Source: Chthonomonadaceae bacterium (GTDB lineage: Bacteria > Armatimonadota > Fimbriimonadia > Fimbriimonadales > Fimbriimonadaceae). Taken from it: a stretch of 64,000 nucleotides of DNA. The position numbers were made by a program, and so were the translations under genes. Positions 51,763 through 54,203 of this stretch are shown piece by piece. The stretch lies in contig CP054189.1 of assembly GCA_015709495.1 (NCBI GenBank), positions 1,550,001 through 1,614,000 on the forward strand, written 5' to 3'. A model generated the notes under the pieces. It was not told the origin of the DNA and did no database searches. It worked only from the letters and a program-made list of their open reading frames with translations. Every line of letters starts with the position of its first letter. Position 1 is the first letter of the stretch.

Positions 51763-52764
51763 TCAGTCGGTGAGTTCGCCGATCGTGAGGGATAGGATCA
51801 CGGGCTGCTCCTCCCGCTTGACGGTAAGGCGAACCGTCTCCCCAACCTTTCTCTCTGAAAGCGCCTTGAAGAACTCGATCTGATTGAGGATGGGTTTTCC
51901 GGCGAATTCGACGATCAGGTCGTTGGCTTGAAGCCCAGCCTTTTCGGCGGGTGAGCCCTTGACCACCGATTGCACTAGGGCTCCGGGTTCCTCTGCGTCG
52001 CGGCAGAACACTCCAATTCCGGGGTGTCGGACAATGTGGTCGGGGGAGAGAAAGCCCTCGATGACTCGTGCCAGCGTCCGGCTTGAAACGGAGTAGCCGA
52101 CTGCCAACGCCGAAGGGCCGTACTGGGAGATCACTGTGGGTGGCGAACTCGACCCCCGAAAGGCGCCCGTCGCGCCGAGCGACTTGGCGGCGTCCTGGAC
52201 CTGAGCCTGAAGCGTCGCGCCTATGATCCCAGCAAGTTGACCTTGGAGCGTAAACACCAAGCCGCCCCCGACCGCCTGTTGCGGGAGTTCGAATCGGAGT
52301 TCGGTGAGCGTCACGACCCGCCTCTGCCGCGAGAGAATGCCGGTCTTGTTGTCGCTCGAGACTTCGGCGCGGCCCGGACCGCCTGCAAAGATGGCGAGCA
52401 GCTTGGTCCCTTCGTCCGGCGTATCGCCAAGGACGGGAACGGCCCTAGCGATCCTGCCGATGGGCAGGGTCGCGGTGAGGAGGACGAGCTCGGTCAATTC
52501 GTCGCTCGCCTGAATTCGGATCGGAACGATTGCGCCGTCGAACGTGCGGGCGGTCGGCATCAGCCCTTCGAGCGCGGAGCGGTGGGTTACGAAGTACCCT
52601 CGCGGGTCGATGCAAGCGGCGGTCCCGGTTACCTTTACGCCGGACGAAAGGAGGATAACGGAGGGCCGCAATTGGTCAAACAGCGACTGCTCGCGTTCGG
52701 TGACGCCCTGACCCGACACAAGGACCGCGGCCGCGATCCCCCAGTTAACCGCCAACGACCACAT
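51763..52764 (-). CDS. HtrA/DegP-like protein with PDZ domain and degenerate protease site
   Basis: 333 residues with a signal peptide (MWSLAVNWGIAAAVLVSGQG), a trypsin-like region and a C-terminal PDZ domain (ALVQSVVKGSPAEKAGLQANDLIVEF). In HtrA enzymes one expects N-H-V, D-x-A and G-N-S-G-G; here they read THRSALEG, ELTELVLLTA and VGGGLVFT. The Ser is gone and the Asp is not at its place, so it is probably a pseudo-protease. The operon is sigma - anti-sigma - this gene, with a 20-bp overlap with the anti-sigma gene; a sensor or scaffold role is inferred. Confidence 0.8.
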   Translation of the reverse strand: MWSLAVNWGIAAAVLVSGQGVTEREQSLFDQLRPSVILLSSGVKVTGTAACIDPRGYFVTHRSALEGLMPTARTFDGAIVPIRIQASDELTELVLLTATLPIGRIARAVPVLGDTPDEGTKLLAIFAGGPGRAEVSSDNKTGILSRQRRVVTLTELRFELPQQAVGGGLVFTLQGQLAGIIGATLQAQVQDAAKSLGATGAFRGSSSPPTVISQYGPSALAVGYSVSSRTLARVIEGFLSPDHIVRHPGIGVFCRDAEEPGALVQSVVKGSPAEKAGLQANDLIVEFAGKPILNQIEFFKALSERKVGETVRLTVKREEQPVILSLTIGELTD

Positions 52765-53512
52765 TGCTTACGGAAGTTACCTCTTTGGCTCGGCTCGCGC
52801 CGGTGGTTTCGTCGCGCGCTTCGTCGATGATGACGAGCGGTTCAGAGTCGTCCGGGCTTGCGGCGAAGGCAGCCGAGGAGACGATTGCGTTCTCGATGAC
52901 GTCGATCGAAAGCTGATCCGCGGCGTATACGAGGTCGGCGGGCGCCGAGGGCTCGCGCTTAGTGACCCGGACGCTCTTTTCGGTCGAGATAGGGGGCGGA
53001 GGAGCGGCTTTGGCCACTTTCATAGGCTCGACGTGAGCCGATTCGATCGCACCTTGGGCGGGCGCGGACAACTCGGCCTGCGCCAACGCGCTCCCGAGGT
53101 TTGAATTCATGCCGGAACTACCCGATGGGTCTTTGGATAGGTTCGTGCGAGCCGCCAAGGGCTTCGCGGTCAGGCCGGACTCGACAGGGCCTGCAGAATA
53201 GACCGACCACGACCCCCAGATCGCAAGGACTGCCGCGGCAGCCCAGGTTGGGGCCGAGAGCCAGCGCCATAGGGAAGGCTCCGCAGGACTTCGAAGTCCT
53301 TGCCGCAGGATCGCTTCGTTGAGTCGCTCGGTCGAGAGTTGGTGCGGCGTCACCGGAAGCTGCTTGAGCCCGTGACGGATCGACTGGAATTGCTCCAGCG
53401 TTTTGCCTGCCTCTGGATCGCTCTCGCACAGCCGACGCAACTCCGCCTCTTCGCTTGTGCTGAGTTCGCCGAAGGCGAGTTTCGCTAACTGGTCTTCGAT
53501 TCGCTTGTTCAT
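52745..53512 (-). CDS. Transmembrane anti-sigma factor
   Basis: 255 residues. The N-terminal cytoplasmic part has the anti-sigma helical pattern (EDQLAKLAFGELSTSEEAELRRLCESDPEAG). One transmembrane helix at ~87-105 (TWAAAAVLAIWGSWSVYS) is followed by a long periplasmic Ala/Pro/Ser-rich stretch. No zinc-binding HxxxCxxC. It lies 1 bp after the sigma gene, as expected of its inhibitor. Proteolytic release is likely but the responsible proteases are not in this window. Confidence 0.82.
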   Translation of the reverse strand: MNKRIEDQLAKLAFGELSTSEEAELRRLCESDPEAGKTLEQFQSIRHGLKQLPVTPHQLSTERLNEAILRQGLRSPAEPSLWRWLSAPTWAAAAVLAIWGSWSVYSAGPVESGLTAKPLAARTNLSKDPSGSSGMNSNLGSALAQAELSAPAQGAIESAHVEPMKVAKAAPPPPISTEKSVRVTKREPSAPADLVYAADQLSIDVIENAIVSSAAFAASPDDSEPLVIIDEARDETTGASRAKEVTSVSNVVVGG

Positions 53513-53513
53513 T

Positions 53514-54203
53514 TCAACTCTCTTCGATCAGGGGCGCAACCCTTTCACGGAGCGCTCGCCTTGCTCGGAGCACCCTAAGCTTTGCGCCGCCTACGGTGCA
53601 GCCCAGAATCTGGGCGATGTCGGTGTATTCTCTCTCTTCCAAATCTCGCAAAATGATCACGGTCCTGTGATGGGCCGGGAGCGCGTTGAGCGCCTTCCGA
53701 AGCGCCTCCACGCGGAAGTCCTGCTCTAAGTTCCTTATCGGGTCTTCTTGGTCGCCCACTGTCATCCAATCGAGCGCGCCGTCGGCCTCTTGCTGTTCGA
53801 GGGCGAGTCTCCGCGAACTCATCCGGGCCTGGTCGGTGCATAGGTTGGTGACGATCCTGAGGAGCCAAGTCGTGAATTTCGCTTCGTCACGATAGCGCGC
53901 GAGGTTGCGGTAAGCGCGTACGAAAGCCTCTTGAACGATGTCCTCCGCGTCGTCCCTCCGGGGAACCATCTGAAAAGCGAAGCGGTAGGCCATGGCCCTG
54001 TGGCGTTCATAAAGCAGTTCAAACGCTCGAAAGTCGCCTTCTCTCGCTCGGCGAACGAGTACGGCGTCGTTGTCAAGGTCGACGCTCCCGAGGAGTCGAC
54101 CCGGAATGAGTTCGGCTGTCTGAACTGCTTGCACCTTTTTCTCCAGGCTTTCGCCTTCCGCATTGTCAGACGCCACTATCGAACTCCTGTTTCGTTCGTT
54201 CAA
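53514..54203 (-). CDS. ECF RNA polymerase sigma factor
   Basis: 229 residues. Region 2: FELLYERHRAMAYRFAFQMV, then DAEDIVQEAFVRAYRNLARY and FTTWLLRIVTNLCTDQARM. Region 4: LPAHHRTVIILRDLEEREYTDIAQILGCTVGGAKLRVLRARRAL, with its helix-turn-helix. The first ~45 residues are extra, and a start further in is possible. Controlled by the adjacent anti-sigma factor; probably responds to envelope stress, as inferred from the HtrA-like third gene. Confidence 0.93.
   Translation of the reverse strand: MNERNRSSIVASDNAEGESLEKKVQAVQTAELIPGRLLGSVDLDNDAVLVRRAREGDFRAFELLYERHRAMAYRFAFQMVPRRDDAEDIVQEAFVRAYRNLARYRDEAKFTTWLLRIVTNLCTDQARMSSRRLALEQQEADGALDWMTVGDQEDPIRNLEQDFRVEALRKALNALPAHHRTVIILRDLEEREYTDIAQILGCTVGGAKLRVLRARRALRERVAPLIEES

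Follow-up and report, generated by a model that had tools for sequence, protein, structure and literature searches.

A tight minus-strand operon in the window, by which we mean the whole 64,000-nucleotide stretch analysed here (positions 1,550,001 to 1,614,000 of contig CP054189.1 of a Chthonomonadaceae bacterium), encodes an ECF sigma factor, a putative single-pass anti-sigma factor and an HtrA-like protein whose catalytic triad is missing. Comparison across the lineage supports the view that this third protein is an old pseudoprotease with a retained PDZ domain. Our preferred reading of the operon as a whole, to which we give close to an even chance of being right, is that of an autoregulated sigma/anti-sigma module whose HtrA pseudoprotease holds the C-terminal tail of the anti-sigma factor and releases it on stress, leaving the cutting to other proteases. 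Gene order, autoregulation and HtrA pseudoproteases are each known separately, and their combination is new; searches of the open-licence literature found no paper on this system. If the reading is correct, a classic proteolytic envelope-stress sensor would have been rebuilt as a pure binding sensor, offering a concrete way into the envelope-stress response of a little-studied phylum; it would also be an example, spanning a whole lineage, of HtrA pseudoproteases whose signalling context is fixed. The features on which the argument draws are collected in Table 1.

Table 1. Features of the sigma/anti-sigma/HtrA-like operon, in coordinates of the window.
Feature	Position	Strand	Remark
ECF-type operon promoter GAAAC-N16-CGTC	54169..54193	-	motif conserved in homologous upstream regions
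ECF sigma factor, proposed GTG start 54134, GGAG 6 nt upstream	53514..54134	-	ORF list gives TTG 54203
Anti-sigma factor, 255 aa: N-terminal domain of helices, then a single membrane helix, an extended disordered linker and a conserved end	52745..53512	-	
Membrane helix predicted for anti-sigma residues 87-104	53201..53254	-	
Conserved C-terminal tail (anti-sigma residues 226-255), a predicted beta-hairpin followed by SNVVVGG-COOH	52748..52837	-	
Overlap of HtrA-like start and anti-sigma end, 20 nt	52745..52764	-	identical offset in 58/79 homologous loci
HtrA-like pseudoprotease, 333 aa: N-terminal hydrophobic stretch, trypsin-like domain lacking its catalytic residues, single PDZ	51763..52764	-	
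Codon at the catalytic His column, residue 63 = Ser	52576..52578	-	His in 0/105 operon-linked rows, 9/9 active controls
Codon at the catalytic Asp column, residue 92 = Glu	52489..52491	-	alignment with active HtrAs
Former GNSGG active-site loop, residues 164-168 = AVGGG	52261..52275	-	alignment with active HtrAs
PDZ domain of the HtrA-like protein (about residues 246-330)	51775..52029	-	PDZ_2 54.2 bits, residues 248-325

The three ORFs are co-directional, and the stop codon of the sigma gene lies 1 nt before the start of the anti-sigma gene. An earlier note, made from the letters of the sequence, had already taken sigma, anti-sigma and HtrA-like gene for one tight unit, and both the ORF spacing (the 1-nt gap and the 20-nt overlap) and the Pfam matches of the sigma factor agree with it. 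Those matches are Sigma70_r2 (70.3 bits) and Sigma70_r4_2 (48.5 bits), to which TIGR02937 adds 102.6 bits against a cut-off of 42.9; with regions 2 and 4 only and its own AAC...CGTC-type promoter, the protein belongs to the ECF sigma factors. The operon is flanked by spoT and dtd on one side and by convergent recJ and nusG on the other (names read from the ORFs, without a family search). In the window's own family (f1) and its nearest sister (f5), the sigma gene is found upstream in 80 of 84 loci, the remaining four of which run into contig edges, and the same order of sigma, anti-sigma and HtrA-like gene recurs in another family of the order (f2) as well as in families f3, f13 and f19. The overlap between the second and third genes forces the start of the HtrA-like signal sequence into frame-shifted codons of the anti-sigma tail, and the N-terminus of the window's HtrA-like protein has no basic residue ahead of its hydrophobic stretch.

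Upstream of the sigma gene, AAC-N16-CGTC is present in 68 of 75 homologous regions, as compared to a mean of 1.85 and a maximum of 5 in shuffled sequence; the other spacers from 13 to 20 occur in 0 to 5 of the 75 regions, at or near background (the set comprises loci with an anchor and enough upstream DNA). Given this conserved promoter, the operon is probably autoregulated by its own sigma factor. The same element bears on where the sigma gene begins, because TTG 54203 lies upstream of it and the start codon after that overlaps with it, so that GTG 54134 is the most likely start. A genome-wide scan with the promoter motif rose barely above background (52 sites versus 44 in the reversed control), which does not support a wider regulon, and autoregulation is the only regulatory target that the motif data support. 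One further GAAAC-N16-CGTC site in the window's genome (G000:C1:1311379-1311403, locus L002) lies 192 nt upstream of the active two-PDZ HtrA gene, inside the end of the preceding ORF. This gene was considered as a regulon member and rejected: the motif is found upstream of it in 3 of 30 relatives, a count equal to the shuffled maximum of 3, and is not conserved.

Although the sequence of the HtrA-like protein matches DegS and mycobacterial HtrA weakly, mainly via the PDZ domain, and its Trypsin_2 match remains below threshold (16.8 bits versus a cut-off of 27.6), its fold as modelled is that of an HtrA. The AlphaFold model, built with 79 relatives as input, has a mean pLDDT of 89 and a pTM of 0.85; its best structural match is Rv0983 (Z 26.8, 273 residues aligned, rmsd 3.5), DegS follows with a Z of 24.4, and among the 50 PDB matches listed all are of the HtrA/Deg type. 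The trypsin-like domain followed by PDZ places the protein in the HtrA fold family (peptidase S1C), and since this fold spans residues 22-333, the third gene product is not a member of the RseB/MucB family. The PDZ domain, which the earlier note had described as kept, is matched above the cut-off of its profile. One scan of a named species collection for a close relative returned just a distant match in Solimonas over residues 208-330.

What the protein lacks is the catalytic machinery. At the His, Asp and Ser columns of the alignment with active HtrAs, it has Ser, Glu and Gly, respectively, and VGGGLVFT occupies residues 165-172, a stretch that reads GNSGGPL in the genome's own active HtrAs. 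The absence of the catalytic Ser motif and of the Asp had been noticed before; the loss of the His had not been mentioned. With the His-Asp-Ser triad missing, the protein falls outside the active proteases, and the residues with which a DegS-type site-1 protease would cut the anti-sigma factor are, as judged from the alignment, not there. A survey of 106 operon-linked rows from six families of the phylum (72 f1, 7 f5, 17 f2, 1 f3, 6 f19 and 3 f13) was set against nine active controls, namely the two intact HtrAs of the window's genome and seven from related genomes. Every control has the catalytic His; apart from one row with a gap there, the column can be read in 105 rows, and none of them has it. 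The other two residues have been lost less uniformly: the Asp is kept in 2/72 f1 and 6/7 f5 rows and in none of f2, f3, f19 and f13, and the Ser in 3/72 f1, 0/7 f5, 3/17 f2, 6/6 f19 and 3/3 f13 rows. Among the rows that can be scored at the His column, none has the whole triad, and the survey of homologues that had been proposed as a check on the loss accordingly turned up no intact triad in this operon position. A recent mutation or an assembly error can be rejected on the same grounds, since all operon-linked homologues that can be read at the column lack the His, and the loss is lineage-wide. In a tree of 61 rows, the nine active proteins all lie to the same side of a supported branch (100/99); a single loss of the His would therefore be sufficient to account for the tree, though it is not proven, the active set being small.

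The second protein is a probable membrane anti-sigma factor, judged by the position of its gene beside that of the sigma factor and by its predicted helices. Family profiles for anti-sigma factors score below their cut-offs (NCBIfam antisigma 22.9 bits against 100), and there is no Pfam match. The zinc anti-sigma (ZAS) subgroup is defined by the motif HxxxCxxC; with one Cys in 255 residues, the protein lies outside it. In the AlphaFold model (whole-model pTM 0.32), helices within residues 1-50 are predicted at a mean pLDDT of 90-98, the linker falls to about 50, and the hairpin of the tail (residues 226-233 and 240-245) rises again to 74-87. Across homologues, the linker measures 90-177 residues and is rich in Ala, Pro and Ser. 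The long frame of locus L130 was considered as a natural fusion of anti-sigma factor and HtrA-like protein and discarded, as the additional N-terminal stretch seems to be an extension read out of frame.

The tail is conserved well beyond the sequence that precedes it. Mean pairwise ungapped identity over the last 31 residues is 0.31, or 0.25 without the gene overlap; the 31 residues ahead of these reach 0.10 and shuffled tails 0.08 (500 pairs drawn at random from 76 sequences, leaving out L089, L049, L051 and L124). One residue alone, A242, is invariant throughout the 76 aligned anti-sigma factors; it and E244, conserved in at least 90%, both lie outside the overlap. In 79 sequences (leaving out L089, which is the window's species, L130, L075, L117 and L132), the protein ends in GG 66 times, in GS five times, in SG three times, and each of five further pairs is seen once. 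The HtrA-like frame, in which it is the wobble position of an Ala or Val codon, leaves the first base of the final codon free to vary, yet this base is G in 70 of the 79; the terminal Gly is thus held in the anti-sigma frame. Two loci of one f1 genus, g11, have anti-sigma factors with aromatic ends instead of GG (AGF in L103, GGY in L056), recalling the -SF of f2 described below. A C-terminal Gly-Gly is not the usual ligand of a PDZ domain, and the f1 tail may therefore bind elsewhere than in the PDZ groove, or not at all.

Other families have ends of their own. In f2, the anti-sigma factor ends in -SF at all 16 loci with a readable end, which span six genera (a seventeenth, L150, is cut off); among close relatives in f19 it ends in Glu in 6/6, and among close relatives in f13 in DSAY in 2/3, the third not having been found. 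The ligands of DegS/AlgW-type PDZ domains are free C-termini such as YQF or WVF, as described for solved structures (PMC8545111), and the f2 end resembles known DegS ligands because the solved DegS-peptide complexes show a C-terminal Phe. Covariation between tail and HtrA-like protein over 76 pairs is weak and confounded by kinship, with no enrichment in the PDZ domain; its top signals fall both in the former active-site region (R157, Q163, V165, G166 and L169) and in the PDZ.

How such a module would work was anticipated in part by the earlier note, according to which the PDZ protein senses ligands and signals without cleavage of its own, perhaps by blocking or recruiting another protease. 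Sensing without cleavage is favoured, since the catalytic loss is ancient and fixed while the PDZ remains intact; the note had missed the likely object of the PDZ or dead cleft, which the sequence comparison suggests is the conserved C-terminal tail of the anti-sigma factor. In the preferred reading, the dead HtrA would bind this tail via the PDZ groove and/or a remodelled dead cleft, and binding would shield or position the anti-sigma factor. In f1 and f5, E155, E159 and G216-P217 are conserved in the dead cleft and differ from active HtrAs. Envelope-stress ligands, e.g. the C-termini of misfolded outer-membrane proteins, would then compete for the site and free the tail, after which a separate protease could cut the anti-sigma factor, be it one of the two active HtrAs or an S41 tail protease, followed by an RseP-like M50 enzyme. 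The genome encodes candidates for each of these roles: an RseP-like M50 (171 bits), five S41 matches and the two intact HtrAs. Finally, the freed sigma factor would re-induce its own operon. A more specific version, which we put forward tentatively and consider somewhat doubtful, is a tethered-ligand switch: the anti-sigma factor would carry at its C-terminus its own PDZ or cleft ligand, which diverges together with the pseudoprotease, as GG in one family and in another as an SF that mimics the C-termini of outer-membrane proteins; stress would be read by competition rather than by activation of a protease, and catalysis would have disappeared in a single event close to the lineage's base, binding being by itself the signal.

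Three other explanations compete with a binding guard. The dead HtrA could be an activator rather than a guard, assembling with or allosterically activating an active HtrA and handing over the anti-sigma factor, as for MamO and MamE. The HtrA fold is kept, the genome holds two intact HtrAs, MamO offers a precedent (PMC4794232), and three f2 loci have a live HtrA operon immediately after the dead one; yet neither active HtrA locus of the window's genome showed a sigma or anti-sigma gene, the two-PDZ HtrA gene lacks a conserved promoter motif upstream, and direct binding explains the conserved anti-sigma end equally well, so that we regard an activator as unlikely. We find it rather improbable, too, that the tail marks the anti-sigma factor for degradation or cleavage by an unrelated tail-specific (S41) or HtrA protease, the dead HtrA being a periplasmic PDZ chaperone in its own right whose only link to the stress operon is shared regulation. 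A free conserved C-terminus behind a disordered linker would indeed suit a tail protease, for which the five S41 matches are candidates, but the fixed gene order, together with an overlap of constant offset in most loci, points to a pair, as does the way in which the anti-sigma ends vary by family as the HtrA-like protein diverges.

That the HtrA-like protein is still a protease, through residues hidden by the alignment, is highly improbable. The Ser persists in all f19 and f13 rows and in a few of f2, the Asp in most of f5, and many f1 and f5 rows (46/79) have a His two positions ahead of the catalytic column. Against this, the catalytic His itself is missing from every row that could be scored, and the search for an alternative conserved triad in f1 and f5 was likewise negative: no column of Ser, Thr, Cys, His or Lys exceeds 64/79, and the best Ser column (271) falls within the PDZ domain and is common to active HtrAs.

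Among known systems, RpoE-RseA-RseB/DegS of E. coli and AlgU-MucA-MucB/AlgW of Pseudomonas likewise combine an ECF sigma factor and a periplasmic PDZ HtrA of the DegS fold with a single-pass anti-sigma factor, the kind of protein predicted here. They differ from the present case in that the HtrA here has no triad and is encoded within the sigma operon, and in that the anti-sigma factor here itself ends in a conserved tail (-SF in f2). MucB and RseB guard their anti-sigma factors and AlgW is activated by peptides (PMC8545111); the former two, however, are not HtrAs. The logic proposed here is closer to that of RseB, a binding guard, than to that of DegS, a cutter, though it is built from an HtrA. 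The order of sigma, anti-sigma and htrA is also common to the window and Mycobacterium, with sigE and rseA-htrA-tatB (PMC10027907). In that genus, HtrA is described as an essential serine protease, and sigE does not share a transcript with rseA; the excerpt of that source used here makes no mention of a PDZ-binding tail in RseA (PMC10027907). The closest likeness to the dead HtrA itself is MamO, a trypsin-like HtrA relative that acts without catalysis: it promotes the proteolysis carried out by its partner, activating MamE without using its own triad, and it is a magnetosome gene product that binds metal and has a TauE-like transporter domain (PMC4794232). The present protein differs from MamO in its sigma/anti-sigma context and its PDZ, and its 333 residues leave no room for a transporter domain.

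A profile search of 113 genomes of the order gave a match to the HtrA-like protein below 1e-25 in 101, distributed as 76/85 in f1, 8/8 in f5, 16/18 in f2, 1/1 in f3 and 0/1 in f4. The nine misses in f1 comprise two reduced 1.5-Mb genomes, six that are less than 90% complete and one that is 91% complete in about 300 contigs. Extending the search to 291 genomes of the phylum added the operon-linked cases in f19 and f13. In the two reduced genomes (G029 and G093, 97% complete), no match to the HtrA-like profile falls below 1e-15, and the module has seemingly been lost. At three f2 loci (L141, L145 and L150), a second sigma/anti-sigma/HtrA set lies directly downstream of the first. The anti-sigma factors of triad-intact, live operons in the three f2 loci looked at have no conserved end of the -SF type. 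The HtrA of the second set at L141, L145 and L150 keeps TNDHVV, SADIAV and GNSGG, placing dead and live versions of the module side by side.
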